Shown one piece after another: positions 24,345 through 46,170 of a stretch of DNA of 64,000 nt. Below the pieces are notes generated by a model that saw nothing but the letters and a program-made list of their open reading frames with translations, was not told the origin of the DNA and ran no database searches. Where the stretch lies: NCBI GenBank assembly GCA_020446425.1, contig JAGRES010000003.1, positions 62,001 to 126,000 on the forward strand, in the 5' to 3' direction. The position numbers and the translations under genes are program-made. How positions within the stretch are numbered: the first letter of the stretch is position 1; each line of letters opens with the position of its first letter. This DNA comes from Sphingobium sp. (GTDB lineage: Bacteria > Pseudomonadota > Alphaproteobacteria > Sphingomonadales > Sphingomonadaceae).

Positions 24345-25781
24345 CTATTCGGCGGGTTGAAGCTGCCGCGTCACAATTGTCTGGGCATTGGTATATTCCG
24401 AAAGCCCATCGAGCGCATTCTCGATACCAATGCCGGATTGCTTGTGACCGCCGAAAGCGACGTGCGGAGAGAAGCTGTGGATCTCGTTGATCCAGACCGT
24501 CCCTGCCTCGATCCGATCGGCAATGGCGCGCGCCTTGGCCGTGTCGCGGCCCCAAACCGATGCAGCCAAGCCATAATCGGTGTTGTTGGCACGCGCGATC
24601 ACATCCTCGACGTCATTGAACTTGAGCAATGGCAGAACCGGCCCAAATGCTTCCTCGACCACTACGCGGCTGTCTTCAGGCGGATTGTCGATGATTGTGA
24701 CGGGTACAAAGAAGCCCTTCCCTTCCGCGATTTCGCCACCCAGCAGGAAACGCTGCCCGTCTGCCTTCGCGTCGGCGAGAAGATTTTTCAGCTTTTCGAA
24801 CTGCATGCGGTTCTGGATCGGGCCAAGGTCGGTTCCCTGTTGCGATCCGTCGCCAACCTTGACGGTCTTGGCATATTCGACCAGAGCTGCCGCCAGTTCG
24901 TCATAGATGTCTTCGTGAATATAGAGCCGCTTTGCCGCAACGCAGAACTGGGCGCTGTTCTGGAAGGCCGCCCAGAACAGTTCTTTCGCTGTCTCCTCGA
25001 CATTCACATCAGGCAGGACAATGGCCGGATCGTTGCCACCGAGCTCCAGCGTAATGCGCTTCAGGTTGCCGGAGCAGCTTTCCATGATCTTGCGACCCGT
25101 AGCGGTCGAGCCGGTAAAGCTGATCTTGTTGATGCCCGGGTGCGCGGTCATCCACGCGCCGAGATCATTGCCACCCGAAACGATGTTGAGCACACCTGCG
25201 GGCAGCACGTCGCGCAACAGTTCGCCCAGCTTCAAGGTGCAGAGCGGAGTATAAGGCGAAGGCTTGAGTACCATGGTGTTGCCAGCCACCAGCGCAGGCG
25301 CGATCTTCCAGATCGCCAGCAAAACCGGAAAGTTCCAGGGCGTAATGCCGCCGACCACGCCCAGCGGAACCCGGCGCGTTTCGACCGTGCGATCGTCCGT
25401 CTTCTCCGCCACATGGACAGGGAGCGACTGCTTGGCAATTTCCTGGCACCAGATCACCGAGCCGCCGATTTCCCATTCCGCCCCGGCGCGGCCCTTGCCC
25501 TGTTCGAGCGTCAGCAGACGCATGAAGTCCTCGGCATGCTCCTGAATGACATCGCCAATCTTCGCAACCATCGCCTGGCGCTCCTCGACCGGGCGGGCGG
25601 ACCATTCGGGAAAGGCGCGCCGCGCCGCTGAGATGGCTTCTTCCAGCTGGTCGCGGCTGGCGTCGGGAACGGTCGCAATGACTTCCTCGGTCGCCGGGTT
25701 GAACGCTTCAATGCTATCGGGCGAGGTCGCCGATTTACCGTCGATGGTCATGGTGTAATCTGAGAAGAAATCGGTGCTCAT
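24345..25781 (-). CDS. NAD(P)-dependent aldehyde dehydrogenase
   Basis: A 478-residue aldehyde dehydrogenase of normal length. Hallmarks are TPWNFPVLLAIWKIAPALVAGN, LKPSPYTPL, ISFTGSTATGRKI, the catalytic glutamate in TLELGGNDPAIV and the catalytic cysteine in NSAQFCVAAKRLYIHE (about residue 288). EEAFGPVLPLLKF and the late FGGHKQSGIG are also present. It oxidises an aldehyde to the acid in the cytoplasm. ATG at 25781 has the ribosome site GAAGGAG. It is fifth in the operon after the LDI-like, SCO, alcohol dehydrogenase and CoA ligase genes, so its likely substrate is the aldehyde made by that alcohol dehydrogenase, as GeoB does for geranial in Castellaniella. Confidence 0.93.
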   Translation of the reverse strand: MSTDFFSDYTMTIDGKSATSPDSIEAFNPATEEVIATVPDASRDQLEEAISAARRAFPEWSARPVEERQAMVAKIGDVIQEHAEDFMRLLTLEQGKGRAGAEWEIGGSVIWCQEIAKQSLPVHVAEKTDDRTVETRRVPLGVVGGITPWNFPVLLAIWKIAPALVAGNTMVLKPSPYTPLCTLKLGELLRDVLPAGVLNIVSGGNDLGAWMTAHPGINKISFTGSTATGRKIMESCSGNLKRITLELGGNDPAIVLPDVNVEETAKELFWAAFQNSAQFCVAAKRLYIHEDIYDELAAALVEYAKTVKVGDGSQQGTDLGPIQNRMQFEKLKNLLADAKADGQRFLLGGEIAEGKGFFVPVTIIDNPPEDSRVVVEEAFGPVLPLLKFNDVEDVIARANNTDYGLAASVWGRDTAKARAIADRIEAGTVWINEIHSFSPHVAFGGHKQSGIGIENALDGLSEYTNAQTIVTRQLQPAE

Positions 25782-25801
25782 AACTGGCTCCTTCAGGCCT
25801 T

Positions 25802-27295
25802 TCATTCGGCCGAAACTAGGTTTTGGAAAAGCGCGCGGCGCATGATCTTGCCTGTGCTGGTTTTGGGCAGATCATCGACGAAATGGATGCCGCGCGGTAC
25901 CTTGTACGCGGCAAGATGCCCTCGGCAGTGGCTCACCACTTCCTCCGCATCAATATTTGCATCGCGATGGAGGACGATGAAGGCCTCGGCCACCTCGCCC
26001 TTCTCGTCATCGGGGCGGCCAGCAACAGCGACCATAGACACCGCCGGATGCATTGCGATCACCTGCTCGAGCTCCGCCGGATAAACATTATAGCCTGCGG
26101 TCAGGATCATGTCCTTCTTGCGGTCGAGGATGTAGAGATACCCCTCTTCGTCAATTCGCGCGATGTCGCCCGTTGCGAACCAGCCTTCGGCATCGAGCAC
26201 TTCCGCGGTTGCCTCAGGATTGTTCCAGTACCCCTGTGTGACAAGAGGTCCGCGAACCATAAGCTCTCCGGAAGAGCCGGCGGTATCATCGGCGTCAGTG
26301 CCAGCAATGCGCACTTCGGTTTGCGGGAAGGGTAGACCGATCGACCCATAACGAGCGGGCCACCAGGGCGAATGCGATGTCGCCGGGCCGCCCAGTTCGG
26401 TCATACCCCACAGTTCCAGCATGGGGCAGCCAAAGCGCTCAGACGCCGCCTCCAGCTTGGCGACCGGCATGGTCTGCCCGCCGACCGTACAGCGCGTCAG
26501 GCTAGTCAGATCGGCTGTCGCAATGTCGGGATGCGCGAGCATCTGATAATACATGGTCGGCACACCTTCAAACAGTGTGACCTTTTCCTGGGCTATACCT
26601 TCCAGCGCAGCCGCCGGATCGAACCTGGCGGGTGCTATCAATCGCGATCCGGTCAGGAAAATCGCGTTCATCACCACATTGCCGTATACATGCGGGAATG
26701 GCAGTGCCGAATAGACGCAATCATGCATGGTGCGCACATGGATGGTGGCGGTCATCGCCACGCTGGCGAAGATGTTGCCATGCGTCAGCATCGCGCCCTT
26801 GGGCTTGCCCGTCGTGCCCGAAGTATAGGCGATCGTGAACAGGTCATCGCCGTTCATGTCGGCGGGCTCCAGCCAATCTTCTTCGAGCAGGTCTTCGAGC
26901 CGCAGTGCGCCTTCGGAACCGCCCGGAACGATCTTGCGCGCGGACCCGACATCTGTCGCGGCCTTTTCCGGAGACAGGATCGCGGCGACGGCATCGGTGT
27001 CCTGCGCCATATAGGTGATCTCGGCGCTACTCAGCAGGATGTTGGCCGGAATGACGACCGCACCCAGCCTGGCTATGCCATGATATGCAACCACCCAGTC
27101 GAGACTGTTGGGAAGGTGCAGGATCACGCGGTCGCCCCGGTTCACGCCCAGCCGCAGCAATCCACCGGCGAAGCGGCCAGCCAGATCATCTATCTCCCGA
27201 AAGGTGAGAGACCGGCCACCGGGAACCGATATGGCGATAGCATCGCCGAAACGCTGCGACGCATTATATACTAGGTCTGTGATCACTCCACGCAT
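25802..27295 (-). CDS. AMP-forming acyl-CoA ligase
   Basis: A 497-residue adenylate-forming ligase. Motifs are IAYTSGTTGKPKGAMLTHGN (phosphate loop, about residues 158-177), ELWGMTELGGP, FATGDIARIDEEGYLYILDR, AGYNVYPAELEQVI and the C-terminal lysine in LPKTSTGKIMRRALF. It lies between the zinc alcohol dehydrogenase (3-bp gap) and the aldehyde dehydrogenase. The set alcohol dehydrogenase, aldehyde dehydrogenase and ligase carries a primary alcohol to its acyl-CoA. If the LDI-like protein makes an allylic terpene alcohol, the product would be a terpenoyl-CoA such as geranyl-CoA. That substrate is inference. Confidence 0.92.
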   Translation of the reverse strand: MRGVITDLVYNASQRFGDAIAISVPGGRSLTFREIDDLAGRFAGGLLRLGVNRGDRVILHLPNSLDWVVAYHGIARLGAVVIPANILLSSAEITYMAQDTDAVAAILSPEKAATDVGSARKIVPGGSEGALRLEDLLEEDWLEPADMNGDDLFTIAYTSGTTGKPKGAMLTHGNIFASVAMTATIHVRTMHDCVYSALPFPHVYGNVVMNAIFLTGSRLIAPARFDPAAALEGIAQEKVTLFEGVPTMYYQMLAHPDIATADLTSLTRCTVGGQTMPVAKLEAASERFGCPMLELWGMTELGGPATSHSPWWPARYGSIGLPFPQTEVRIAGTDADDTAGSSGELMVRGPLVTQGYWNNPEATAEVLDAEGWFATGDIARIDEEGYLYILDRKKDMILTAGYNVYPAELEQVIAMHPAVSMVAVAGRPDDEKGEVAEAFIVLHRDANIDAEEVVSHCRGHLAAYKVPRGIHFVDDLPKTSTGKIMRRALFQNLVSAE

Positions 27296-27298
27296 AGT

Positions 27299-28420
27299 TC
27301 AGCCTGCGGTAGAGCCATTGGGGAGCAATATCGCCTTCAGCACCTCGCCTTTTTCTGACAGATGTGCAGCCTCGTCGATATCGGCCAACGGGAAATAACG
27401 GACCAGCTTGTCGAACGGAAAGCGACCCTGGCGCCATAGCTCGATCAGTCGCGGAATAAATATGTCGGGAACGCTGTCCCCTTCGATGATTCCGCGAACG
27501 GTGCGCCCGAACATGACTCCGTTCATGTCGAGCGTGATCTCGGTCCCAAGCGGTGCAACACCCATGATGCCGCACGTTCCGGTCAGGCGCAGGCAATCGA
27601 CCGCTTGCCTCACCACCGCCGGCACACCGGTGCATTCGAGAGAATATTGCACACCCTCTCCGCCGGTTGCCGCCTGGATCGCCTCGACAACATTGCCGTC
27701 TGCGGCATTGATCGCGAGAGTAGCGCCCAGTTCCAGCGCCAGCTCAAGACGGCTCGGGTTGAGGTCAACCGCGATAATGGATGCGCAGCCTGCGACCCTT
27801 GCCGCCATGATGGCGGCAAGGCCAACCGAGCCAGCTCCGAAAATCGCAATACTGCTGCCACCCTCGGGCTTGAGCGCGTTGAGGACGGCGCCCGCGCCGG
27901 TCTGAATGCCGCAGCCAAGTGGCCCCATCAACTCGACAGGCACATCGTCAGGGATTTTCACGACATTGCGCTCTGTTGCAATCGCGTGTTCGGCAAACGA
28001 ACTCTGCGCAAAGAAATAGGCGCTCAGGCGCTCACCATGCGCATCGCAGCATGGCGTCGATCCGTCCGGACGTCCGCCGCTGAAGTTGCGTCCGTAAAGG
28101 TCCGGGCAATAGCCATATCGCCCTTGCTGGCAGTTGGTGCATACGCCGCAGCTCGCATAGCTCAGCACCACATGATCGCCCGGCTTGACCTTGGTGACTC
28201 CCTCGCCGACCTTCTCGACGACACCGGAACCTTCATGACCCAGGACAGCGGGCAGCGGGGTTGGGAAATACTGATCGCGCACCACCAAATCGGTGTGGCA
28301 CATCCCAACACCGCTTATTCGGACCAGAACCTCGTTATAACGGGGTTCCTCCAGTTGGACCTTCTCGACGGTAAACGCACCGCCTTGCTCACGCACGACG
28401 GCAGCAGTTGTTTCAAGCAT
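27299..28420 (-). CDS. Zinc-dependent alcohol dehydrogenase (benzyl alcohol/geraniol dehydrogenase type)
   Basis: A 373-residue zinc MDR alcohol dehydrogenase. The catalytic zinc is held by C41 (GMCHTDL), H62 (LGHEGSGVVEKVG) and the later cysteine in GPLGCGIQTGAGAVLNAL. Four structural-zinc cysteines are in YASCGVCTNCQQGRYGYC, and the NAD-binding motif is FGAGSVGLAAIMAAR. The pattern is that of aryl-alcohol/geraniol dehydrogenases (XylB, GeoA) rather than plain ethanol dehydrogenases. It oxidises a primary alcohol to an aldehyde with NAD. It overlaps the SCO gene by 8 bp and precedes the CoA ligase by 3 bp, so co-expression with the LDI-like gene is very likely. Confidence 0.92.
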   Translation of the reverse strand: MLETTAAVVREQGGAFTVEKVQLEEPRYNEVLVRISGVGMCHTDLVVRDQYFPTPLPAVLGHEGSGVVEKVGEGVTKVKPGDHVVLSYASCGVCTNCQQGRYGYCPDLYGRNFSGGRPDGSTPCCDAHGERLSAYFFAQSSFAEHAIATERNVVKIPDDVPVELMGPLGCGIQTGAGAVLNALKPEGGSSIAIFGAGSVGLAAIMAARVAGCASIIAVDLNPSRLELALELGATLAINAADGNVVEAIQAATGGEGVQYSLECTGVPAVVRQAVDCLRLTGTCGIMGVAPLGTEITLDMNGVMFGRTVRGIIEGDSVPDIFIPRLIELWRQGRFPFDKLVRYFPLADIDEAAHLSEKGEVLKAILLPNGSTAG

Positions 28421-28919
28421 TGGATATGTTTTCCTCTCTGCTTATGATGTCGGAAATCCGCGCGGCGATCGTCTCGCCGTCGACGGAATCCAGAAAATGA
28501 GCGCGATACTCGCCTGTTGGATCAATCAGGTAGGCGATGGCCGTATGGGGCACGACATATCCGTCAGCATCCTCTTCGTCGGCCTTGCGCTGTGCGAATA
28601 CCCGGAACGCCTTCTTGGCGTCCTCGATCTGATCCTCGGTTCCGGTCAGGCCGGTAAAGCGGGGAAAGTTCTCTTCAAGCCAGTCCTTCATGACAGATGG
28701 CGTATCCCGAGCCGGATCGACCGTTATGTAAAGCGGCGCAATCCGGTCTATGCCAGGGCCGAGCGCATCGAGCGCGGACGACAGTTTCGCAAGCGACCGC
28801 GGACAAACCACTTTGCAGTGGGTAAAGCCGAAATAGACCAGCATCCACGAGCCACGAAAATCCTGTTCGCTAACGGATTTGCCGTGATGATCGACCAGCG
28901 AAAAATGCGCTTCAATCAT
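28413..28919 (-). CDS. SCO1/SenC-type thioredoxin-fold protein without signal peptide
   Basis: A 168-residue SCO-family protein with all three usual copper ligands: C35 and C39 in GFTHCKVVCP and H125 in VVPHTAIAY. The DPARDTP segment near residue 69 is typical. SCO proteins normally sit on the periplasmic side behind a membrane anchor and mature cytochrome oxidase CuA. This one starts directly with the core fold (MIEAHFSLVDHHGKSV) and has no signal or anchor, so it should be cytoplasmic. Its ATG overlaps the LDI-like stop as ATGA, so the two are translationally coupled. A thiol-reductase or metal-chaperone role for the LDI-like protein is my inference. Confidence 0.87.
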   Translation of the reverse strand: MIEAHFSLVDHHGKSVSEQDFRGSWMLVYFGFTHCKVVCPRSLAKLSSALDALGPGIDRIAPLYITVDPARDTPSVMKDWLEENFPRFTGLTGTEDQIEDAKKAFRVFAQRKADEEDADGYVVPHTAIAYLIDPTGEYRAHFLDSVDGETIAARISDIISREENISNA

Positions 28920-30526
28920 GCCTCATTCCAGACCACTTCAAGCCTGTGGTCTCCGGCGGGCAACCGCAGATCGAGACGATCCCCGTTCCTGTGCGCTTCG
29001 GCGCGACCGGAGCTGGTAACTTCGCTGTCATTGCCTTCGACAGCGACTTCATCGTCGATCAGCAGTGACCAGGAACCACGCCCCCAAAAGTTGGCAAATG
29101 AGAGGTCGAAGAAACCTTCCCTGCATCGGCCGGGGCGCATAGCGATATTCAAGGAACGCGTATCGGGGTGATAGCGTGCTTCCCTGACTTCGATGCCCTC
29201 AGACATGTCCACCAGAGCAGGCTGAGCAAAATGCGCTTTCGTCAGCGGGTTGTTGTACAGCTTGTTAAGGCCGTCCGGCACGTTGAGCCGGGCGTAACCG
29301 AGCAATGCGTTACCGGTATGCGGATCCATAGCCGCAAGACGCCCTTGATCATCAAACCACCCATCCCTGCGCGGATAGAAATATGCCCCATTGTCCCAGA
29401 CAGGGTCCATGAACATGTCTGCATATTTGAGCAAACGATCCAGGCTATCTGCATCCCCCACTTCCGACGCACAAACAGCCGCCCAGCCAAAATCATAGGC
29501 ATGAGTCAAAGGCGGACCGAAACCCTCAGGCTTGACCGACGGCTCAATCCACATGGATCCTTCCGGAGCGTCACGCCGCCAATGCGCGATCTGCGCCGGG
29601 AAGTTCGATTTGACGATTTCCGGGTTCCACATGTTGATTAGCGAGCCGAGCCAGAAATCGGCCCACCCCTGTGGCGGCGGCTCGAGCAGCTCGTGCTCTT
29701 TCTCCATCACGAGGATGTTGAAGTGCCCGTTTTCACGGGTAATCCCGAACTCGGACCACGCTTGTTTATATCCTTCGGTAACCTCTTCGGCAATCGAACC
29801 ACCATAGACAAGGTCGTGCATCCGGAACCCGAGGATGGCGGGCTGGTTACATATCTGGAATACGCAATTGGGTTCGCAAGCGATGCCCAAATATCCCTTC
29901 TCAACCATCTGCCAGTATAGACGCTGGTTCAGCGACTTTTCGTCATACTCGAACGATTCCCCGCCATCTCCCCAGTAGAGTGGCTCGATTTTGAATGTCA
30001 GCGCACCCGGTTGGGCATATTTGGGATCATCGAACAAATAATGATACAGCAGCGCCATCGACTGGATGTACGCGCTGTACATGATGTTATCGTCATGAAC
30101 CGGGTTCCACTGCGGCGGCAATTCACCGAGCGACTTGTTCATTGGTCCATTGCCGGTGCTGACGTGACGCCAATAGGTCCAGACATCCGGCGAGAGCATT
30201 TTTTCGATCAAGCGCTGGAACGGCGCACGAAAGACAGCGGGCGCGGCGGGCAGACGATGCACATGGGTCAGCGCCAGCGCGTAAGACATATAAGCCAGCT
30301 GAAACCGGAGCGCCCCAAAATCTTCCTGCAGCGAACTGCGGTTCATCATACCGGACCAGTCATCCGGCAATCTTTCGGCGAGATCCAGGATTCGCCGCAG
30401 ATGACCGGCCTGTTTATCGTCCAGAGCATTAAGGCCAGACCGTTCTGAACGCGCTATGGGTTTGAGTTCGGTAATGGGACGATCCTCTGCTTTGTCCGGC
30501 AGTTCTGCACGCTGCTCTGGACTAAT
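28916..30526 (-). CDS. Linalool dehydratase/isomerase-like protein, copy 1 (no signal peptide)
   Basis: Resembles linalool dehydratase/isomerase (LDI) of Castellaniella. The motif GIACEPNCVFQICNQ places two cysteines nine residues apart, as in the LDI active-site pair, within an all-helical barrel pattern (LRFQLAYMSYALAL, FGWAAVCASEVGD, DPHTGNALLGYARL). The longest frame with a normal start begins at TTG 30370, but similarity to copy 2 clearly continues upstream (LDDKQAGHLRRILDLAE against LDAKELGHIHNIVALAQ). The open frame has no ATG, GTG or TTG before a stop at 30554. An ATT at 30524-30526 with AGGA 6 bp upstream is my preferred start, giving 536 residues; a 5' frameshift is the alternative. 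No signal peptide. First gene of a six-gene operon. Substrate unknown, a tertiary or allylic alcohol by analogy. Confidence 0.8.
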   Translation of the reverse strand: MSPEQRAELPDKAEDRPITELKPIARSERSGLNALDDKQAGHLRRILDLAERLPDDWSGMMNRSSLQEDFGALRFQLAYMSYALALTHVHRLPAAPAVFRAPFQRLIEKMLSPDVWTYWRHVSTGNGPMNKSLGELPPQWNPVHDDNIMYSAYIQSMALLYHYLFDDPKYAQPGALTFKIEPLYWGDGGESFEYDEKSLNQRLYWQMVEKGYLGIACEPNCVFQICNQPAILGFRMHDLVYGGSIAEEVTEGYKQAWSEFGITRENGHFNILVMEKEHELLEPPPQGWADFWLGSLINMWNPEIVKSNFPAQIAHWRRDAPEGSMWIEPSVKPEGFGPPLTHAYDFGWAAVCASEVGDADSLDRLLKYADMFMDPVWDNGAYFYPRRDGWFDDQGRLAAMDPHTGNALLGYARLNVPDGLNKLYNNPLTKAHFAQPALVDMSEGIEVREARYHPDTRSLNIAMRPGRCREGFFDLSFANFWGRGSWSLLIDDEVAVEGNDSEVTSSGRAEAHRNGDRLDLRLPAGDHRLEVVWNEA

Positions 30527-30614
30527 TCGATTTCCTGCTCTTAGAATGGCAATCTATGCGTGATCTGTCAATATGTACTAATATTGTATATTTTACGAGG
30601 CCGTGAGGGGATTT
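30527..30614. promoter_or_regulatory. AT-rich divergent promoter region (LDI operon / tetR)
   Basis: An 88-bp spacer between the LDI-like copy 1 and the divergent TetR gene. It contains TTGACA on the minus strand (30566-30571) and the AT-rich stretch AATATGTACTAATATTGTAT. The segment TTGTATATTTTA here resembles TTGTATAATTTTA upstream of the TonB receptor at about 31336, which could reflect a shared TetR operator. No perfect palindrome is present, so the site is tentative. Confidence 0.4.
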
Positions 30615-31280
30615 ATGCCGAACAGCGAGAACAGCCGTACAACGATGAGCCGCACCGAAATCGGGGAAATGAGGCGTGCGAAGATGCGCAACCGGTTGAT
30701 AGCCGCTGGCGCCAAAGTCATCGCGGAGCGAGGGTCCCAGAAGGCCACTATCGACGATTTCATCACTGAGGCAGAGGTGTCGCGAGGGACCTTTTATAAT
30801 CATTTCTCGACACGCGAACAAATGCTGGAAGCGATCTGGACGTCCAGAGGGCATGACCCTTTCGAAGCGATTCTGACTGCATGCCGGAGCATCAGCAATC
30901 CGGCGGAACATTTGTCTGCTGTAACACGGCTCGTGCTGCAGGAAGCCATGCGCGACCCTACTCTGGGGTGGCTTATCATCGCACTTTCCGCGGACGTTTC
31001 AACAGTAAACGAGGATCTGAGGGAATATCCGCTGCCCGATCTCGTCGCGGGTCAGGCCGCCGGCGTTTTTCACTTCGATGATCTGGCATGTGCGGCAGAC
31101 ATGGTCGTAGGCACGGTGCGCGCAGGACTGCACGTGCTGCTCAGTGAAACGCGGGAATCGCACTATATCGACTCGATGAGCAAGCTATTGCTCATCGCGC
31201 TTGGCGTCGTTCGGGCCGATGCCCATCGCATCTCCCATTCAGCCCTGCCAATTCCGGACGCAATCAAGGACTTAGCCTAG
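30615..31280 (+). CDS. TetR-family transcriptional regulator
   Basis: A 221-residue TetR protein with the helix-turn-helix at about residues 37-60 (ATIDDFITEAEVSRGTFYNHF). ATG at 30615 has AGGGG 4 bp upstream; an upstream in-frame GTG at 30603 overlaps that ribosome site. The regulator sits between two LDI-containing units: the operon reading leftward and the TonB-tlpA-LDI group reading rightward. It probably controls both. The ligand may be the imported terpenoid-like substrate or an acyl-CoA product. Confidence 0.88.
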   Translation: MPNSENSRTTMSRTEIGEMRRAKMRNRLIAAGAKVIAERGSQKATIDDFITEAEVSRGTFYNHFSTREQMLEAIWTSRGHDPFEAILTACRSISNPAEHLSAVTRLVLQEAMRDPTLGWLIIALSADVSTVNEDLREYPLPDLVAGQAAGVFHFDDLACAADMVVGTVRAGLHVLLSETRESHYIDSMSKLLLIALGVVRADAHRISHSALPIPDAIKDLA

Positions 31281-31399
31281 GCCTGACCCCTTGCCACATT
31301 CAATTTGTAGATAATCTTTCCAAATTGACATTTGTTGTATAATTTTATATCCCAGTATCAGCCGTCCGGTAAGAACGGTTCGTGCAGGGAGAGAATGTT

Positions 31400-33757
31400 A
31401 TGAAATTGTCGTATCTTAAATTCACCGTTGGGACTGCCGCGCTGGCTATCGCCGCAGCCGGTTCAACGGGACATGCCCAAAATGCAGCAGGTGAGTCATC
31501 GGCCGACGCGGAGCTCGCGATCCCCGAAATCATCGTCACCGCGCAAAAACGCGAACAGTCCATCAAAGACGTTCCGATATCCATTCAGGTCGTGTCGGGA
31601 GAAGCTCTGCGCGAAAAAGATCTGAACGACCTTCAGAATGTTACACAGACGCTGCCTGCGGTTACGGTCGCAGACAACGGCGTTTCGCAATATCTCTTCA
31701 TTCGTGGCATCGGCTCCGGTGAAAATGCCGGTTTCGAGCAGTCCGTCGGCACTTTTATAGATGGCATCTATGTCGGTCGAGGCCGCATTTCGCGTCAGCA
31801 GCAGCTCGACCTTGACCGGGTCGAGGTTCTGCGTGGCCCGCAGAGTATCTTCTTCGGTAACTCATCCATCGCAGGTGCCTTCAATGTCGCCACCGCCGGC
31901 CCCGGCAATACATGGGAAGGCTATATCAACGGCCAATATGAGTTCGAGTTCGAAGGCAAGGAAATCGAAGCAGCCGTCGGCGGTCCGCTGACCGATACAT
32001 TGGGCATCCGCCTTGCAGGACGTTATGCAAAAACCGACGGGTGGGTGACCAACATCATTGATGACAGCACGTCTCCGTCGAGCGAGAGCTATGCTTTCCG
32101 CGCCACGGTCGCCTGGTCGCCAACCGAGACCGTAGATGTAACCTACAAAGGCTCCTACGCGAAAAACAAGAGCTACGGCACTCCCTATGAGGCTCTCAAG
32201 TGTCCGCCTCTGGCAGCAGCGCCTGGTCCCGCTTGCGCCCTCGCATTGACGGACCCCGCCGGGAACACAATTCCGCTCGATTTCCGCAAGGTTTCGGGGA
32301 ATCAACCGGTCACGCCGATCTTCCCGGGCAACGCTCCCACACCGACCTTTGCGGATGAAAATTTCAAGCAGGAAAGCCAACTGCACGTATTGAATGTCGA
32401 CTGGGATGTGGGCGCAGGCGTAATCACTTCCACCACCGGCTATCTCTACACGGACGAACCCGATGTCTACGATCCGGATCAGACCCGCTATTTTATCATC
32501 AATGTGGAGAACCTGGAAAAGTTCAAACAGTTCAGTCAGGAACTGCGCTTTGTGTCTGACGACAGCGGGCCGCTGCAATATATCATCGGCGCCTATTATC
32601 AGCACTCCGAGCTTGATCGCGATGGACATGCCCGCTTCAATCTTGCAGCAGGCGGCCTTCCGGTTCAAACGGACACACGAAGAATTACATATGACGAAGC
32701 CGATCTTTACGCGGTATTCGGTCAGCTAACCTATAATCTTACAGACGCCCTCTCAGTCTCGGTTGGTGGCCGCTATCAGCACATCGACAAAAAATATACC
32801 ACCACCGTGGGGCAGGAAAACCTGGCCAATACAGGCCCGGCTGATCCGTTCTCAGCTGCTGTAATCGCTAACATTCAGAGTTTGATATTGGGAACGCGCT
32901 CGGCCACGCTGACCAACAAGAAGTTCACGCCCGAATTCATTGTCAACTATGACGTAACGCCCGATGTCCGCGTCTACGCCAAATATACCGAAGGCTTCAA
33001 GGCTGGCGGCTTCGACGGCGCTAACGTTGGCGATATCACATTCAAGCCCGAAACGGTCGATTCCTATGAAATTGGCCTGAAGATGTCGTCATTCGACAAT
33101 CGTTTGCAGCTGAATGTCGCCGCATTCCGCAGCGAATATAAGGATCTGCAAGTCTCTATCTTCGATCCTACTACGACAACGAACAGGGTACAGAACGCCG
33201 GTGCATCCCTAACCCAAGGCATTGAGGTTGAAGCAACTCTGCAGGCCACGCCCGAATTCCGGATCAATGCTGCTTTCGCTTATCTCGATGCGAAATCCAA
33301 AAGCTTTCCCGGCGCCCCGTGCTACTACGAGCAGCAGGTAGGCCTTGATCCGGGTTGTGCGCCCATTACACCTGGGTCAACTGCCCTGGTGCAGGATTTA
33401 ACGGGTAGGGAACTGCAATTCTCGCCAGATTTCAGCGGCACGCTTGCATTCAACTATGAAGTTCCGGTTGCCGACAGCTTCAAATTGAATGGCAACTGGG
33501 AAATCAATTATTCAGACGCCTATTTCACAACGCTGGATAATGATCCTGACTTCCAGGTTCCTCATGGTGTACAAATGTCCGCCCGCATTGCGTTCGGCGA
33601 TATTGATGACCGCTGGAGCGTGGGCGTTCTCGGCAAGAACCTGACGAACAAGGATGACTTTACCGGCGGCATCAACTGGCCTCTGGCAACGGGATCGAAG
33701 CTCGTTACGCGCGAACGCCCCAGAACGATTGCGGTCTTCGCAAACTACAACTTCTAA
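31400..33757 (+). CDS. TonB-dependent outer-membrane receptor
   Basis: A 785-residue receptor. The signal peptide covers residues 1 to about 27 (LAIAAAGSTGHAQ), the TonB-box-like PEIIVTAQKRE is near residue 44, and the plug reads YLFIRGIGSGENAGFEQSV then DLDRVEVLRGPQSIFFGNSSIAG. The barrel ends FANYNF. The FGNSSIAGAFNVATAGP variant of the plug end differs from the usual GRNTTGG, and the same FGNSSIAG/LGKNAIAG style is seen in the receptor at 55.8-58.2 kb, so these two are closer to each other than to the one at 21.4 kb. ATG at 31400 has AGGGAGAG upstream. Between tetR and the tlpA-LDI pair, it is the best candidate importer for the LDI-pathway substrate. Confidence 0.93.
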   Translation: MKLSYLKFTVGTAALAIAAAGSTGHAQNAAGESSADAELAIPEIIVTAQKREQSIKDVPISIQVVSGEALREKDLNDLQNVTQTLPAVTVADNGVSQYLFIRGIGSGENAGFEQSVGTFIDGIYVGRGRISRQQQLDLDRVEVLRGPQSIFFGNSSIAGAFNVATAGPGNTWEGYINGQYEFEFEGKEIEAAVGGPLTDTLGIRLAGRYAKTDGWVTNIIDDSTSPSSESYAFRATVAWSPTETVDVTYKGSYAKNKSYGTPYEALKCPPLAAAPGPACALALTDPAGNTIPLDFRKVSGNQPVTPIFPGNAPTPTFADENFKQESQLHVLNVDWDVGAGVITSTTGYLYTDEPDVYDPDQTRYFIINVENLEKFKQFSQELRFVSDDSGPLQYIIGAYYQHSELDRDGHARFNLAAGGLPVQTDTRRITYDEADLYAVFGQLTYNLTDALSVSVGGRYQHIDKKYTTTVGQENLANTGPADPFSAAVIANIQSLILGTRSATLTNKKFTPEFIVNYDVTPDVRVYAKYTEGFKAGGFDGANVGDITFKPETVDSYEIGLKMSSFDNRLQLNVAAFRSEYKDLQVSIFDPTTTTNRVQNAGASLTQGIEVEATLQATPEFRINAAFAYLDAKSKSFPGAPCYYEQQVGLDPGCAPITPGSTALVQDLTGRELQFSPDFSGTLAFNYEVPVADSFKLNGNWEINYSDAYFTTLDNDPDFQVPHGVQMSARIAFGDIDDRWSVGVLGKNLTNKDDFTGGINWPLATGSKLVTRERPRTIAVFANYNF

Positions 33758-33793
33758 TTCTTGGTCCGAAACCGGCCCAAGAAACCGGCAAGC

Positions 33794-33830
33794 GGCTGGG
33801 CGGATCATGGTCATCGTGATCCGCCCAGCC
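33794..33830 (+). terminator. Perfect 14-bp hairpin after the TonB receptor
   Basis: GGCTGGGCGGATCA (33794-33807) pairs perfectly with TGATCCGCCCAGCC (33817-33830) around a 9-nt loop. It starts 37 bp after the receptor stop and ends 45 bp before the tlpA-like start. There is no U-run, so it may be a Rho-independent terminator of poor type, an RNA-stability element, or a way to lower expression of the downstream genes relative to the receptor. Confidence 0.6.
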
Positions 33831-33874
33831 TGCCCCGGAACGGGATGGACCGAAGCTGGACTGGTTGTAAGTCC

Positions 33875-34477
33875 ATGATTGGGTTGGGCAGGACGCTCGG
33901 CACGGTCAACGTGAGCGACAGCAAACCCCTTTCTCTAGGTTGGGCGATCGCCTTCTGTCTGGCGTTGCTCACTGCGCCCTCAGCCGCAACCGAGCGCGAG
34001 TGGGAATATCCGTCCAAGACCATGAAAGCTGAATTGCATTTTGTCGATGCCGAGGGTCATCGAGGAGGGTTGGAACGGTTTTCAGGGTCGCCCCTCCTGA
34101 TAAATTTTTGGGCAAGCTGGTGCGCCCCTTGCCTGATCGAGCTTCCCGCTCTGGACCGTCTTGCTCAAGATCCCGCGCGCGGCCCTTTACATGTCGTTGC
34201 GCTGTCATTGGATCAAAAGGGCATCGCTCCGGTCCTCGATGTTTTCCGGCGAGCGAAGATCCATCATCTGCAACCGCTGGTTGATAGCGGCCATGAAAGC
34301 CTTGCGGGTACGACACTGCCGGCATTGCCTTTTACAATGCTTGTTTCGGCACAAGGGTGCGTTCTGGCCATGCGCAGAGGCAGGGTGGACTGGGACTCAT
34401 TGGCAGAACGCAAAGCGCTGCGTGCATTGATGTCAGCATCCGATTTGGACGGGGAGCGTTCCGAAGAACCCTGTTGA
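33875..34477 (+). CDS. TlpA/ResA-like thioredoxin-fold protein, exported
   Basis: A 200-residue protein with an N-terminal hydrophobic segment (LGWAIAFCLALLTAPSAATE, residues 21-40) that looks like a signal peptide or anchor. A thioredoxin domain follows, with the redox motif WCAPC at C83/C86 inside NFWASWCAPCLIELPAL and the cis-proline loop TTLPALPFTMLV. It should be a periplasmic thiol reductase of the TlpA/ResA class. ATG at 33875 is the first good start before the signal; the ribosome site is weak. It lies 68 bp upstream of the exported LDI-like gene, and keeping the cysteines of that protein reduced is the obvious proposed job (inference). Confidence 0.85.
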   Translation: MIGLGRTLGTVNVSDSKPLSLGWAIAFCLALLTAPSAATEREWEYPSKTMKAELHFVDAEGHRGGLERFSGSPLLINFWASWCAPCLIELPALDRLAQDPARGPLHVVALSLDQKGIAPVLDVFRRAKIHHLQPLVDSGHESLAGTTLPALPFTMLVSAQGCVLAMRRGRVDWDSLAERKALRALMSASDLDGERSEEPC

Positions 34478-34545
34478 GGAGCGGAATCTCGTCCTGTCCC
34501 AGAGCCTTCGATATTGTGTCGACATCGCTGGAAAGGAGAATTCAC

Positions 34546-36189
34546 ATGCTCAATATAAGAAAAATTCTCATCGCATTCGCGCTCTGCAATGCGAGCACCT
34601 CTCCAGCGAAAGAGCCGCTGCCCCAATATCCCTCGCTGGATGCGAAGGAGCTGGGCCATATTCACAATATTGTTGCTCTGGCTCAGCAACCTGGGTTCGA
34701 CACTATGAAGGAGGGGCCGCGCGGAGCATTCGACCAGTATCAGTTCCAGATCGCCTGGATGTATTATGCCCTGGCCGTCGCGCAAACGCAGCAGCTTCCC
34801 GCCTATCGAGAGCTGTATAAAAAAACTTCGGATCGCCTGATCGAAAAGATGATGGAACCCGATGTCTGGCAGTTCTGGCTGACGGTGATCGAAAAGCCGC
34901 GCTTTTCAAAATATCTGGATAAATCGACAGACTGGCGCGATCCTGTGCGGTCAAAAAATATCATGTACAGCGGCCATCTGTTGCAGATGGTTGGGCTGTA
35001 TCAAAGGCTTTATGCCGATGATAAATACACCCACGCCGGGTCGATAAAGTTCGAAATTCCGGGCGAAGGCGGTTTCAGGCACGAATATAGTTTCAAATCG
35101 CTCGCGGAGAACATCCGGCAACAGTTCATCGACAGCGAACTTGAGGGCATAGAATGCGAACCGAATTTCGTATTCGCAGAGTGCAACCAGCACCCGATCC
35201 TGGGCTTGCTGGATTATGACATGATATACGGAACCAATCTAGCAGATATTCGATCAGGGTTCTGGGAAGAGGCCGAAAAAATTGGCTTTCTGAACCATCA
35301 GACATCGCGGTTTGCGGGTCCTCATCTCAAGCATGAAAATATCACCGGCAAGATGACGACCGCCTGGAACGATGGCTGGACAGGGCTTACGCTTCATGCC
35401 TGGAACCCGGATGCCGTCGACAAGCTCTACCCGGTCCAGCGCGACGCCGAATTTCCGAAACTGATCAATCAGGATCCAGCCGTCTGGAGCGTGCGCTGGT
35501 CCAAGGCTTCCGTCTCCACGGATTTTGGCTTTCTGACCGCCTACGCCGCAGAAGTCGGAGATGACGCTACGAAGAGCGTTCTTCTCGATTATGCGGACAC
35601 GCATTTCCATCCTGTGTGGACAAAAGGCAGGCTCTATTATCCGCGGCATGATGTCGACACAGATACCGCACCGGTTCAGATTACCGGTCAGGAATCCGTG
35701 GGTCCATTCCCTGCCCCTTCCCCGGCGCCATTGAAACCGGAACAGTTTGGAGACCATCTTGTAGGGCCATTGACGGGTAACGCCCTGCTGGCATTTGCGC
35801 GCCTAAACCCCGGAGACGGCCTCTGGAACACTTATAACCGGCTGGATGTGACCTACGCGCAAAACGATCTGCAACTCGTTGAGGTCGACTATCCTTCTGT
35901 TGACGTTACGCAGGCCTATTATGATCGTACTCTTGGGCGCCTGGCAATAACGCTCGCACCGGGCCCTCACGCCGATACTGGACCGACACGTTTCGCCATC
36001 ACCAATATCGACAGCACCAAGCTCTACTCCGTGAGTGTGGACGGCCACATGGTTGCACAGGGCAAGGGCCAGAGCTTGGTGTCGCGAGACCCCGCTATGA
36101 CATTGAATTGGAGCGAGCCGAACAGCCTTATCTTCAAAATGCCAATTGGTTCCGGGCGCCAGATCATAGTCGATCAGCTCGTGCGATGA
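34546..36189 (+). CDS. Linalool dehydratase/isomerase-like protein, copy 2 (exported)
   Basis: A 547-residue protein with an N-terminal signal-like segment (MLNIRKILIAFALCNASTSP). The LDI-type cysteine pair is C204 and C213 in GIECEPNFVFAECNQHPILG. Other shared blocks are FQIAWMYYALAVAQTQQLP, NIMYSGHLLQMVGLY, TDFGFLTAYAAEVGDD and GPLTGNALLAFARLNPGDGL. Compared with copy 1 it carries a histidine (H144, YSGH) where copy 1 has YSAY, and it has a proline-rich insert near residue 390. ATG at 34546 has GAAAGGAG. A periplasmic location matches the known LDI of Castellaniella. Reaction by analogy: dehydration or isomerisation of a tertiary/primary allylic alcohol. The true substrate is unknown. Confidence 0.82.
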   Translation: MLNIRKILIAFALCNASTSPAKEPLPQYPSLDAKELGHIHNIVALAQQPGFDTMKEGPRGAFDQYQFQIAWMYYALAVAQTQQLPAYRELYKKTSDRLIEKMMEPDVWQFWLTVIEKPRFSKYLDKSTDWRDPVRSKNIMYSGHLLQMVGLYQRLYADDKYTHAGSIKFEIPGEGGFRHEYSFKSLAENIRQQFIDSELEGIECEPNFVFAECNQHPILGLLDYDMIYGTNLADIRSGFWEEAEKIGFLNHQTSRFAGPHLKHENITGKMTTAWNDGWTGLTLHAWNPDAVDKLYPVQRDAEFPKLINQDPAVWSVRWSKASVSTDFGFLTAYAAEVGDDATKSVLLDYADTHFHPVWTKGRLYYPRHDVDTDTAPVQITGQESVGPFPAPSPAPLKPEQFGDHLVGPLTGNALLAFARLNPGDGLWNTYNRLDVTYAQNDLQLVEVDYPSVDVTQAYYDRTLGRLAITLAPGPHADTGPTRFAITNIDSTKLYSVSVDGHMVAQGKGQSLVSRDPAMTLNWSEPNSLIFKMPIGSGRQIIVDQLVR

Positions 36190-36254: not shown

Positions 36255-37535
36255 TCAGGCCGGACGACGTGCGTACATACCGAATGCCGCTATGACAGCA
36301 TAGCAGATCGCTGGTATCGCAAGCGCCACCGAAAGACTGTGCGAAAGATCGGCCACCGCCCCCGTCAGTAGTGGAACAACCGCCCCACCAAAGATCGCGA
36401 CGTTGATGATGCCCGATCCATCGGCCACTCTGCCGCCCAGCTTCTCGCATGCGAGTGCGAATATCGTTGGAAACATGATCGAGTTCATCAGGCCAATTGC
36501 GAGCAGCGAAACCGCAGAGACAATACCCGTGGTGTTGGCCGAAACAGCAATCAGCAGAACGACCATGGCGGCATTGAAGGCCAGCACCTTCCCGGGGCTG
36601 ATAGTCCGCAAAACGGCGGAACCGATGAATCGGCCAACCATGGCTCCACCCCAATAATAAGCAATCAGCTTGCCGGCGCTTTGCTCATCGAGCCCCATGA
36701 CCGAAGACTGCATCAGGTAATTGACGATCAAGGAGCCGATTGAGACTTCTGCGCCAACATAGAGAAATATGCACAGCGCGCCGAAGCCGAATCTCGGCCG
36801 CTTCAGCAGGTCCAGCCCGGCGAGCCCGGTACTCTCGACATGGGACTCACCCTTCAGGCGATTGCGGAAAAGCCAAACGGCCAATGCCACCAAGGCGAGC
36901 ACAGCGGCCAGAAAGAGATAGCCGGAAACAATCGCATGGCTTTCCACCCGGCGATATTCGTCGAGCGCTGCACCGCTCAGATCCGCGGCTGAAACCGTCG
37001 CAATGCTGCCGAGAATAAGCAACGAGCCGACATAAGGGAATATGGTCGTGCCCAGCGCGTTGAAGGCTTGTGCGAAGGTAAGGCGGCTATGCGCGGTTTC
37101 GGAGGGGCCAAGCAGGGTGACAAGCGGATTGGCCACCACCTGAACGATGACCACACCGCTGGCCAGGATGAAGAGCGCAAGCAGAAAGATCGCATAGGTC
37201 GCCGTCTGGCTGGCCGGGATGAAAAGCAGACAGCCGATCAACATCGTCACAAGGCCAGCAACCGCGCCCCGCATATAGCCAATCTTCTTGATCAACTTTG
37301 CGCCCGGAATGCCGATCACCAGATAAGCGGTGAAAAAGCAGAACTGTACCAGCATCGCCTGCGTGAAGTTGAGCGTGAAAAGCTCCTTCAGCTTCGGAAT
37401 GATCACATCGTTGAGCGACGTGATGCCTCCGAAAATGAAGAACAGAGAAAAGATGAAAGGCTGCAAACCGGCAGCATCTATGCCGCTGTTCGCAGCTTCC
37501 TGTTGAGGGGGGACGGCACCGGGAGACATTGCCAT
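36255..37535 (-). CDS. MFS sugar transporter (FucP/GluP family)
   Basis: A 426-residue 12-helix inner-membrane transporter. The opening FIFSLFFIFGGITSLNDVIIPKLKELF (in pieces) with GG and N-D residues is typical of the fucose/glucose-galactose:H+ symporters FucP and GluP, as is VVANPLVTLLGP in the fourth helix and NSIMFPTIFALA in the C-terminal half. ATG at 37535 has AGGA 9 bp upstream; ATG at 37577 is an alternative. It follows the GH3 gene by 57 bp, so it probably imports the monosaccharide released by that enzyme, glucose by context since glucokinase is also in the regulon. Confidence 0.9.
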   Translation of the reverse strand: MAMSPGAVPPQQEAANSGIDAAGLQPFIFSLFFIFGGITSLNDVIIPKLKELFTLNFTQAMLVQFCFFTAYLVIGIPGAKLIKKIGYMRGAVAGLVTMLIGCLLFIPASQTATYAIFLLALFILASGVVIVQVVANPLVTLLGPSETAHSRLTFAQAFNALGTTIFPYVGSLLILGSIATVSAADLSGAALDEYRRVESHAIVSGYLFLAAVLALVALAVWLFRNRLKGESHVESTGLAGLDLLKRPRFGFGALCIFLYVGAEVSIGSLIVNYLMQSSVMGLDEQSAGKLIAYYWGGAMVGRFIGSAVLRTISPGKVLAFNAAMVVLLIAVSANTTGIVSAVSLLAIGLMNSIMFPTIFALACEKLGGRVADGSGIINVAIFGGAVVPLLTGAVADLSHSLSVALAIPAICYAVIAAFGMYARRPA

Positions 37536-37592
37536 ATAGTTCGATCCTGCTGCTAAACTGCGACTATGCGTTTCCAAAAAGCTCGAAGAATA

Positions 37593-39908
37593 TCATTCCG
37601 ATTGAGCAAACCAGGAGGTTGCGGCGGCATCCGGATGCCACGCGACCGGCAACGTTCTTTTCGGAAGTTTTACCGTGATCTGAATGCCCGGGTCAGTGGC
37701 ATTTTTGGCCAGGATCAGGTGATATTTCCCCTTCGCCACGACCCAGCCTTTTGCCGCGTCGGCATAATGCGCAATGAACCGGGGGTCGATGGCAAGCATG
37801 ACCGTTTTGGACTCACCGGGATCAAGCGAAGTGATGCCCCACCCTACCAGACGTCGTTCGCCTTTCGGCGGCTTCACATAGAGCTGCGGCGTGTCGCGTC
37901 CGGCTGTGCCGCCGGTGTTAGTGACCGTGAATCGAGCGGTAAGGCTGGTCTTGTCGAATGCCAGCGCAGCGTGCTCGAAACTGGTATAGGAAAGGCCAAA
38001 GCCAAAGGGGAAAAGCGGCGTGGCATCAGTTTTTGCATACCAGCGATATCCGATATCCGCGCCCTCCGGATAGGACATGTCGAAGGGCTCCGGTTCGCTG
38101 TGGTTTACCGGGCTGGGCAGCGGCAGGCGCGCCCCTGGAATTTCGGGATTGGGCAGTTGCGACTGGCTCGCCGGGAAAGTTACCGGCAAGCGGCCCGACG
38201 GGTTCGCCTTGCCGAATATGATGTCCGCAATCGCTTCACCCCCGCCTGCGCCTGAATACCACGCTTCCACCACAGCGCCGGCCTTGTCCAACCAGGGCAT
38301 CAGAACCGGCCCGCCGGTCTGCAACACAACAACCGTTTTCGGGTTGGCGGCGGCGACAGCGTCAATCAGCTGATCCTGCTCGCCATCCAGGGTGATCGAG
38401 GCGTCCATGGCCTCTGTGGTCCATTGTCCGCCAAACAGGATCACCACATCCGATTGAGCAGCCAGTGCTGCGGCAGCCTGTATGTCATTTCCGTTTGCGT
38501 AGCTGACCTCAGCAGAGGGAGCCAGCTTGCGGATCGCCTCGAGCGGCGAGGAAGGATGATAATAAATACCCGCCAGCCAGTCCGGCGCGTTGGACGGCGC
38601 ATCGAGACGCACTGAACCTTCGGGAATGACCTGCGACGATCCGGCACCCGAAAGTACGCCCGCATCGGCGTGGGGGCCGATCACGGCGATCTTCTTGGCG
38701 CTTGCGGCCAGAGGCAGAAGATTATCATCGTTCTTCAGAAGAACGATCCCTTCAAGCGCCGCTGCTTTCGCTACCTGCTTGCCCTTCTCAAGATCGAGCG
38801 GTTGCGGCGGTCCTACCGGATTGTCCATCACGCCTGTGGCGTACAGCGACCGCAATATGCGGGTGACCATCCCGTCTATCTGCTTTTCCGACACCGCGCC
38901 GGTGCCGACCGCATCCTTGAGCATCTGGCCGTACCAGACATTCGTGTCGAGCTCCTCGCCCGCCTCCTGGTCAAGCCCGGCATGAACCGCCTTTACCGTC
39001 GAGTGCACAGCGCCCCAATCGGAGATCACCCAGCCCGGATAGCCCCAGTCCTTTTTGAGGATATCGAACATGATGGCGTTCTCACAGCCATAGTGACTGT
39101 TGATCCGGTTATAGGAGCACATGATCGAACCGGGATCGCCGATCTCGATTCCCTTCTGAAAAGCAAGCAAATCGGATTCGCGCAGCGCTGCTTCATCCAT
39201 ATTTACGCTCAGTACGAACCGACCGGTCTCCTGGGGATGGATAGGATAATGCTTCATTGTCGAAACGATATTGTTGCTCTGGATGCCTTTCACCGAATAG
39301 CCTACGAGCGTCCCCGCAAGCAGAGGGTCTTCACCGAGATATTCGAAATTGCGGCCACCGCGAGGCTCACGGACGAGGTTAACTCCGCCAGCAAGCAGGA
39401 TGTTGAACCCCTGCTGCCGCGCCTCCTTGCCGATGAGAGCCCCTGAATCGAAAGCAAGCTTGGGGTTCCAGGTGGCAGCGAGCAGCATACTGGACGGCAG
39501 AGCGGTCGCAGGCTTGATCGTGCGGTGTCCTGCTGCAACGCCAAGGCTGGCGTCTGTCGCGCGCTGCGCCGGGATACCGAGGCGTTCTATCCCGGGGACC
39601 CAACCTGCCGAAACCGGAACATCTTCAGGCCGGTTCTCCATAACTTTAGGGTAATTGCCGTGGACAAGCTGGATCTTCTCATCGAGCGTCATCTGCGCGA
39701 CCAGCCCCGCCGCGCGCTCATCCGGAGATTGAGCCTGAGCTTCTTGAGCATTGTTTTGAGGCGATTCCGCATTCGCTGCTGGGCAGAACGATGAGGCCAA
39801 CAGGATCGAACCGGCGGCGATCACGCTCACCGCCGATATCCGGGAAGTTCGCTCGCGACGCGGAAGGCCCCTAACATGCTCCCCTGCGGAAGTGAATTGA
39901 TCAGTCAT
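37593..39908 (-). CDS. Glycoside hydrolase family 3 (beta-glucosidase type), exported
   Basis: A 771-residue GH3 enzyme. An N-terminal signal segment (VSVIAAGSILLASSFCPAANA, residues 28-48) follows an arginine-rich leader. The TIM-barrel domain runs about 60-390 with the nucleophile D297 in GWVISDWGAVHS and substrate-site blocks GVNLVREPRGGRNFEYLGEDP and MKHYPIHPQETGR. The alpha/beta sandwich domain is about 400-600 and a C-terminal fibronectin-III-like domain about 680-760 (TVTNTGGTAGRDTPQLYV). It should release terminal beta-linked glucose or xylose in the periplasm. A GGAA-N6-TTCT box lies 46 bp upstream. Next to inositol genes, a glucosyl-inositol-type or plant-glycoside substrate is plausible but unproven. 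Confidence 0.92.
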   Translation of the reverse strand: MTDQFTSAGEHVRGLPRRERTSRISAVSVIAAGSILLASSFCPAANAESPQNNAQEAQAQSPDERAAGLVAQMTLDEKIQLVHGNYPKVMENRPEDVPVSAGWVPGIERLGIPAQRATDASLGVAAGHRTIKPATALPSSMLLAATWNPKLAFDSGALIGKEARQQGFNILLAGGVNLVREPRGGRNFEYLGEDPLLAGTLVGYSVKGIQSNNIVSTMKHYPIHPQETGRFVLSVNMDEAALRESDLLAFQKGIEIGDPGSIMCSYNRINSHYGCENAIMFDILKKDWGYPGWVISDWGAVHSTVKAVHAGLDQEAGEELDTNVWYGQMLKDAVGTGAVSEKQIDGMVTRILRSLYATGVMDNPVGPPQPLDLEKGKQVAKAAALEGIVLLKNDDNLLPLAASAKKIAVIGPHADAGVLSGAGSSQVIPEGSVRLDAPSNAPDWLAGIYYHPSSPLEAIRKLAPSAEVSYANGNDIQAAAALAAQSDVVILFGGQWTTEAMDASITLDGEQDQLIDAVAAANPKTVVVLQTGGPVLMPWLDKAGAVVEAWYSGAGGGEAIADIIFGKANPSGRLPVTFPASQSQLPNPEIPGARLPLPSPVNHSEPEPFDMSYPEGADIGYRWYAKTDATPLFPFGFGLSYTSFEHAALAFDKTSLTARFTVTNTGGTAGRDTPQLYVKPPKGERRLVGWGITSLDPGESKTVMLAIDPRFIAHYADAAKGWVVAKGKYHLILAKNATDPGIQITVKLPKRTLPVAWHPDAAATSWFAQSE

Positions 39909-39953
39909 TACGCCTCAGTCCTCTGCATCATATTTTTCATAAATTTTAATAAT

Positions 39954-39967
39954 GGAATTTATATTCT
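39954..39967. promoter_or_regulatory. Candidate RpiR/IolR box upstream of GH3
   Basis: GGAATTTATATTCT fits GGAA-N6-TTCC with one mismatch. It lies 46 bp upstream of the GH3 start, in the AT-rich promoter region, and links the GH3-MFS pair to the inositol regulon. Confidence 0.5.
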
Positions 39968-40082
39968 ATGCATTGCACCGAAGCAACCCATTGAGTCAAC
40001 CTGCCTGCTTTTTGCCATCCGTCATATCATGTCACCTAATGGATGCTGACAAGAATACATCTGTCTGTCCGGATGCGCGCGG

Positions 40083-40919: not shown

Positions 40920-40950
40920 AGATAATCTTTCAAATGTCCCTTAGGGGTTG

Positions 40951-41895: not shown

Positions 41896-41947
41896 TTTGG
41901 CATCCTCCTCATTATATCGTTTTGCGGAACATCGGCCTCACCCACGA

Positions 41948-44589: not shown

Positions 44590-44617
44590 CGTTCTTCCTT
44601 CCAGTTTCTCGTCTTTT

Positions 44618-46153: not shown

Positions 46154-46170
46154 CGACTTCTCCTGACCGC

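Follow-up and report, generated by a model that had tools for sequence, protein, structure and literature searches.

Known LDI systems and the Sphingobium locus

The linalool dehydratase/isomerase (LDI) of Castellaniella is a periplasmic, oxygen-sensitive enzyme that requires a mild reductant and whose Cys170 and Cys179 must be reduced, as described in the accessible part of PMC6600392, which also assigns to it a separate essential disulfide. Its active-site histidine is named in the accessible part of PMC12455561. Two genes of the same family, LDI1 and LDI2, are found in a 64,000-nucleotide stretch of Sphingobium sp. DNA (GenBank assembly GCA_020446425.1, contig JAGRES010000003.1, positions 62,001 to 126,000), referred to here as the window, from a genome of 2.73 Mb in 36 contigs. 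LDI1 is coupled to a gene for an SCO protein and LDI2 follows a gene for a TlpA-like protein, and genes of the LDI1 type stand beside an SCO gene in most of the related loci, suggesting that the pairing is a dedicated way of making such enzymes active, or keeping them so, in air.

In Castellaniella and Thauera, linalool is made into a primary alcohol, oxidised and activated with coenzyme A (CoA), according to the available portions of PMC4109377 and PMC4847356. The Lis protein of Thauera linaloolentis is a distant LDI relative (20% identity) encoded near geoAB and atu genes, and its assays used dithionite, dithiothreitol, cysteine or ferrous iron, but Lis is membrane-anchored, has 644 amino acids and comes with no mention of an SCO or TlpA partner in the available text of PMC4791888, which also proposes the isomerisation of 2-methyl-3-buten-2-ol to prenol. 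The published table of the C. defragrans island, in its accessible form, lists no SCO next to ldi. Three places away from ldi in C. defragrans 65Phen lies a gene that the accessible part of PMC3490891 calls a putative cytochrome c oxidase subunit; by counting, this gene is CDM25269, which is later called 'hypothetical'. In the Bradyrhizobium TlpA–ScoI–CoxB system, TlpA and SCO serve the cysteines of one client protein, as the accessible part of PMC6696091 describes, whereas the client here would be an LDI-family enzyme and not COX II, and the SCO paired with LDI1 lacks both anchor and signal. The enzyme and partner families are already known. As far as the literature was searched, their dedicated, compartment-matched coupling and a soluble cytoplasmic SCO are undescribed; the search, with most subscription-journal papers outside its reach, returned nothing joining linalool dehydratase with SCO1 or linalool with an SCO family protein, and a single review for linalool dehydratase together with thioredoxin.

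The two LDI genes of the window

On the minus strand, LDI1, SCO and genes for a zinc alcohol dehydrogenase, an acyl-CoA ligase and an aldehyde dehydrogenase are tightly packed. The plus strand carries a TetR regulator, a TonB receptor, the TlpA-like gene and LDI2. The features are as follows.

24345–25805, minus: aldehyde dehydrogenase, linked catabolic genes (PF00171, 1.8e-157)
25802–27295, minus: AMP-binding acyl-CoA ligase, linked genes (PF00501, 1.4e-85)
27299–28420, minus: zinc alcohol dehydrogenase, linked genes (PF00107, 4.4e-29; PF08240, 2.2e-25)
28413–28919, minus: SCO protein without signal or anchor, CxxxC and distal His (PF02630, 3.1e-46)
28916–30526, minus: LDI1, leaderless, CEPNC type, with a probable ATT start (28916–30370 if TTG) (PF18566, 6e-112; predicted fold)
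29858–29878, minus: CEPNCVF motif of LDI1 (motif scan)
30603–31280, plus: TetR-type regulator, divergent from LDI1 (PF00440, 4.8e-11)
31400–33757, plus: TonB-dependent receptor, open reading frame (ORF) listed from GTG 31382 (PF00593, 3.4e-44)
33875–34477, plus: TlpA-like thioredoxin-fold protein, WCAPC, signal-like N terminus, start at 33875 or GTG 33911 (PF00578, PF08534)
34546–36189, plus: LDI2, signal-like leader, CEPNF type (PF18566, 1.1e-77)
35155–35175, plus: CEPNFVF motif of LDI2 (motif scan)

Both proteins are LDI-like, as a sequence-only reading of this DNA had proposed: LDI1 scores 374.7 bits and LDI2 262.1 bits against the Ldi family PF18566, whose curated cut-off is 26.1, and sequence comparison matches both to the solved C. 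defragrans LDI (2.1e-4 and 5e-10, respectively). The predicted fold of LDI1 is the (alpha/alpha)6 fold of that enzyme, one of the outcomes by which the earlier reading had asked to be judged. The single-sequence structure model of LDI2 has a pLDDT of only 35, and for this protein the LDI fold is suggested by sequence profiles. The back-translated CEPN...F motif has two matches in the window, both in LDI genes, against a mean of 0.01 in shuffles. The catalytic cysteines of both proteins, nine residues apart, align with the active site of the solved LDI, in agreement with what had been read from the letters.

LDI1 has no leader, and its gene shares the ATGA at 28916–28919 with the SCO gene, so that the reported coupling of the two ORFs (28916–30370 and 28413–28919) is borne out. 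Since relatives and LDI2 align upstream of the listed TTG at 30370, the start of LDI1 must lie upstream of it, where the frame has no ATG, GTG or TTG at the conserved N terminus. The likeliest candidate is an ATT at 30526 with an AGGA six bases before it; otherwise there may be a sequence error at this place. LDI1 has a third motif cysteine (CEPNC) and a tyrosine in place of the LDI active-site histidine (NIMYSAY), and its model, compared with the C. defragrans structures (PDB codes: 5i3t, 5g1u, 5hlr), has an additional predicted C-terminal beta region. The third cysteine and the lost histidine indicate that LDI1 is not simply an LDI kept reduced. Thus, the first description of LDI1 holds for its leaderless N terminus and its coupling to SCO, but it missed the longer gene, the third cysteine and the tyrosine. 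These features are not peculiar to the window: C217, C221 and C226 are present in 79/79 type-1 LDIs, of which C217 and C221 define the group and C226 does not, and the active-site histidine position of CEPNC-type sequences is occupied by Tyr in 71/78 and by His in 7/78. A metal site formed by the HxH pair of type-1 LDIs was set aside because the pair is separated by 13 residues of helix from the position matching LDI Tyr66, which we take to be a pocket residue, and is probably far from the cysteines.

LDI2 keeps the active-site histidine (NIMYSGH), and after its leader it has only two cysteines, the catalytic pair, leaving no further pair for a bond such as the Cys48–Cys101 capping disulfide of C. 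defragrans LDI. It belongs to a group of five with L059, L061, L126 and L127, in which Sec- or Tat-like leaders are seen by inspection in 5/5 proteins, only the two catalytic cysteines follow the leader in 4/5, and the third cysteine (CxxxC) occurs in 0/5. In a quick tree, the five proteins cluster apart from the cytoplasmic type with an SH-aLRT of 85, and with one of 98 for the four members other than the long-branched window protein. When 250 genomes of the class were searched for further LDI2 relatives, only three genomes besides LDI2's own gave matches, all weak or partial, and a plasmid search with LDI2 returned the same 12 records as one with LDI1.

Partner proteins

The window SCO scores 157.1 bits against SCO1-SenC (PF02630). 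It lacks the usual membrane anchor or signal, and the protein begins at the domain. The CxxxC motif and the distal histidine are kept in 77/77 aligned SCOs. A CCC or CC sequence close to the N terminus marks some signal-less SCOs, most of them from Comamonadaceae (L063, L067, L077, L079, L109, L113, L124, L178 and L179), and the Undibacterium protein (L113) has CCHHQSH there. The partner of LDI2 matches AhpC-TSA (6.5e-07) and Redoxin (2.7e-06) and stays below the cut-off of the TlpA equivalog NF047696 (82.2 versus 230 bits), so that with its WCAPC motif and leader it is called TlpA-like only. Its ORF ends at 34477 and LDI2 begins with ATG at 34546, which confirms the 68-bp gap noted before.

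LDI–SCO pairing across genomes

A first survey sought Ldi matches in 397 genomes of the window's own family, Sphingomonadaceae, and 20 regions were fetched. A wide survey scanned 84,980 species genomes by LDI patterns, from which the best 80 of 90 relatives, in 78 loci of alpha-, beta- and gammaproteobacteria and actinobacteria, were retained; the ten weakest are left out of all 78-locus counts. Its patterns required CEPN[CFA][IV]F or another conserved stretch, so that the share of CEPNC sequences partly reflects the selection, in which SCO played no part. The samples overlap, L061 being genome G253 and L125 genome G115 of the family survey; the LDIs of L103 and L104 are identical, and L070 is truncated by a contig end. 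Further searches covered 396 genomes of the order, 398 of the phylum, and plasmids; among the additional hits from the order, phylum and class, those of G897 and G466 were viewed with flanks and five weaker ones in short loci only, where a motif scan showed neither SCO nor TlpA. Two weak family-survey Ldi hits (G042 C5 and G380 C30) were left out without flanks. Leaders were recognised by inspection and a hydrophobicity score instead of a dedicated predictor. Start codons were picked by a script, wrongly for L127, where the real overlap is 4 bp. Neighbour families were counted by tblastn or profile, with profiles read for 30 proteins of selected loci only; a raw clustering of neighbouring ORFs was dropped because it merged unrelated frames.

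In the wide survey, an SCO gene is present in 74/78 loci, and 70 of 76 CEPNC/CEPFC-type LDI genes have SCO within 200 bp, so that the co-occurrence by which the earlier reading stood or fell is strongly upheld. Among the 70 close pairs, 62 have LDI followed by SCO on the same strand, six the reverse order and two opposite strands, and with script-chosen starts LDI and SCO overlap by 4 bp in 33 pairs. SCO lies 1.1 and 8.2 kb away in two of the other six cases and is absent from the fetched stretch in four, one of which is cut at a contig end. All six of these genomes encode an LDI-type SCO (216–244 bits, against at most 137 for their other SCOs), which in two is the gene 1.1 or 8.2 kb away and in one adjoins a second CEPNC LDI. 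The distances among LDIs and among SCOs correlate over the 70 pairs (r 0.61, 0/999 permutations), as shared ancestry alone could also bring about.

Ldi matches occur in 19/397 genomes of the family, and each of the three CEPNC-type regions besides the window has SCO in its cluster: in one it overlaps LDI by 4 bp, in another it lies within about 30 bp downstream, and the third has two SCO genes, a leader-bearing one adjoining LDI1 and a signal-less one after a TetR gene about 11 kb from LDI1, together with an exported LDI2-type gene immediately preceded by a TlpA-like one. Neither SCO nor TlpA was detected in the 17 regions with other Ldi subfamilies (tblastn, E<1; two regions are contigs of about 6.5 kb). 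Genomes with Ldi matches number 9/396 in the order and 3/398 in the phylum, several of them weak and of other subfamilies; G897 holds a CEPNC LDI, found apart from the wide scan, with SCO adjacent, and an Agrobacterium vitis plasmid carries the LDI1–SCO pair. In the reverse direction, 236 of 249 family genomes have some SCO match, SCO being otherwise mostly a matter of one or two genes per genome. Matches above 150 bits were obtained in three genomes only, the window's and two others, all LDI-adjacent, and the next three have membrane leaders.

Compartments of LDI and partner

A hydrophobic leader is present in 3/74 SCOs (L061, L126 and L127) and absent from 71/74, and all three leader-bearing proteins come from loci with an exported LDI2-type gene, in agreement with the match of compartments that had been suggested for the window. 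In L127, the leader-bearing SCO gene and the LDI start share 4 bp; in L061 and L126, such an SCO gene lies about 3.2–3.3 kb away and, as in the window, a leader-bearing TlpA gene is directly upstream of LDI2. L061 is counted among the 70 close pairs through an adjacent SCO with a leader, and its signal-less SCO lies elsewhere in the cluster. The Rhodococcus erythropolis BG43 plasmid (L142, 8794–11286) encodes a CEPNC LDI that bears a Tat-like leader; next comes the gene of a His-rich DUF1942 lipoprotein, and aldehyde dehydrogenase, alcohol dehydrogenase and CoA ligase genes lie nearby. This LDI is exported yet of the CEPNC type, an exception to a strict rule.

Possible functions of the pairing

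These observations lead to a hypothesis whose chances appear about even: LDI1 and LDI2 would be a cytoplasmic and a periplasmic isozyme of the Ldi family, each with its own thioredoxin-fold partner acting on the active-site cysteines. As proposed from gene pairing and sequence, LDI1 and SCO, and LDI2 and TlpA, may form transient complexes in which the CxxxC or WCxxC of the partner exchanges with the CEPN...CN cysteines. The most likely purpose of such an exchange in an aerobic cell would be to reduce and repair the LDI cysteines, given that reductants activate both family members studied so far and that Castellaniella LDI is sensitive to oxygen. Reductive maintenance was chosen since thiol chemistry on a client is common to the cases with TlpA only, SCO only and both. 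The active LDI may convert a tertiary allylic alcohol (linalool, 2-methyl-3-buten-2-ol or similar) to a primary alcohol, from which the linked alcohol dehydrogenase, aldehyde dehydrogenase and acyl-CoA ligase would then yield an acyl-CoA; this pathway is suggested by the linked genes, as for linalool in Castellaniella and Thauera. The pairing would make a widespread two-gene system of a family in which two members have been studied, give a genetic hint as to how oxygen-sensitive thiol enzymes stay or become active, and add a proposed SCO client other than cytochrome oxidase. Co-expression offers a practical test for an enzyme class wanted in alkene and terpene biocatalysis.

Several points weigh against reductive maintenance. 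Thioredoxin and glutaredoxin are already present in the cytoplasm, which makes the need for a private LDI1 reductase less than obvious, and the copper-ligand histidine kept in 77/77 SCOs is not demanded by pure thiol reduction. LDIs without a nearby partner also exist: around the exported second LDI of L059 there is neither TlpA nor SCO; no SCO motif is found in the 19.5-kb stretch with the exported CEPNC-type LDI of Rhodococcus plasmid pRSLBG43, or in the 19.4-kb stretch with a signal-less CEPNC LDI of a Variovorax VAI-C plasmid; and a CEPNR-type LDI whose frame is interrupted by a stop (L194, G466 C88) has no SCO or convincing TlpA motif on its 6.8-kb contig. Castellaniella LDI is inactive when obtained from the E. 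coli cytosol, for which its authors cite the essential disulfide and assembly (PMC6600392, accessible part), and is for these reasons a poor guide to the cytoplasmic LDI1. The earlier idea that an aerobic host keeps its LDI relatives active with dedicated reductases or a copper chaperone, one set in each compartment, thus survives in the pairing and the compartment match, but not as a simple case of LDI1 being kept reduced, nor without exceptions that have no partner close at hand. Shared ancestry moreover makes the 70 pairs, which are related sequences, non-independent. This could favour chance neighbourhood or an inherited accident of gene order, a very improbable explanation because the pair is found in two phyla, in both gene orders and twice on opposite strands, because SCO is kept elsewhere in the genome when it is not adjacent, and because SCO genes are otherwise so few per genome.

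It is possible, though distinctly less probable than reductive maintenance, that LDI1-type proteins are copper enzymes: the cytoplasmic SCO would load Cu(I) into a three-cysteine site, CEPNCxFxxCN, exported forms would use TlpA and SCO as proposed for the assembly of the CuA site, and Cu(I) would stand in for the lost histidine in activating the alkene or allylic alcohol. The invariant CxxxC and histidine copper ligands of all 77 SCOs, the tyrosine at the catalytic histidine position in 71 of 78 LDIs, and the N-terminal CCC or CC of certain SCOs are consistent with this, as is the third cysteine, found in 79/79 type-1 LDIs versus 0/5 of the LDI2 group, though this residue defines the group. 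In L085, a CopA-like Cu-ATPase gene lies 44 bp upstream of LDI1–SCO; however, CopA is adjacent in 1/78 loci, with one other CPC-type ATPase several kb away in L053, and LDI2 of the window has TlpA and no linked SCO. Cytoplasmic copper enzymes are, besides, rare in bacteria. Studies of other Sco proteins point both ways, since Bradyrhizobium TlpA reduces ScoI and COX II and Streptomyces lividans Sco is a copper chaperone without thiol-reductase activity, whereas no transfer of copper from ScoI to COX II was seen and human Sco2 acts as a thiol reductase (all from the accessible part of PMC6696091); and the catalysis described for Castellaniella LDI relies on cysteine and acid/base chemistry, the accessible text of PMC6600392 mentioning no metal. 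On this less probable reading, CEPNC-type LDIs would be cytoplasmic Cu(I)-thiolate enzymes acting on alkenes or allylic alcohols and receiving copper from a private soluble SCO, which, if true, would give SCO a client outside the respiratory copper sites and bacteria a rare cytoplasmic copper enzyme. Rather unlikely is a third explanation, in which SCO is itself a pathway protein (a peroxidase-like scavenger or an enzyme subunit, for example), co-transcribed with LDI and not acting on its cysteines. Sco proteins are tied to oxidative-stress defence in the accessible part of PMC6307045, and the pair is kept amid varied neighbourhoods as a heteromeric enzyme would be, but the compartment of the partner tracks that of LDI and TlpA replaces SCO in exported cases, arguing for a shared thiol function.

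Neighbouring genes

Among the 78 loci, relatives of the window's alcohol dehydrogenase, CoA ligase and aldehyde dehydrogenase (E<1e-10) occur in 30, 25 and 21, respectively, and a relative of its TetR regulator in 13. The annotated neighbours are diverse, including regulators, hydrolases, transporters of the ABC and MFS types and, in Agrobacterium vitis, RND efflux; LDI and SCO thus appear to form the invariant core. On the plasmid of A. vitis, a grapevine bacterium (L140, 4459–12316), TetR, LDI1–SCO and an RND efflux pair stand together. In L030 (8240–12497), LDI1–SCO lies beside a putative short EthD-like gene and a putative Rieske oxygenase gene, both recognised by eye, with no alcohol dehydrogenase, aldehyde dehydrogenase or ligase relatives in its 19.5-kb stretch. 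The CopA-like protein of L085 (7698–9854, Pseudonocardia sp. TRM90224) has the HMA motif GMTCASC and a CPC motif.

The linked genes of the window appear to agree with the geraniol catabolic genes geoA, geoB and geoC only at the level of protein families. The genome has two long Carboxyl_trans matches, for which profile models did not separate the geranyl-CoA from the 3-methylcrotonyl-CoA route, and a sigma-70 scan yielded nothing of use. Downstream of LDI2 (36255–49725) are genes for an MFS transporter, a GH3 beta-glucosidase with a leader-like start, and inositol-type catabolism (KduI/IolB, a TPP enzyme and a sugar ABC transporter), raising a possible link to terpenyl glycosides.

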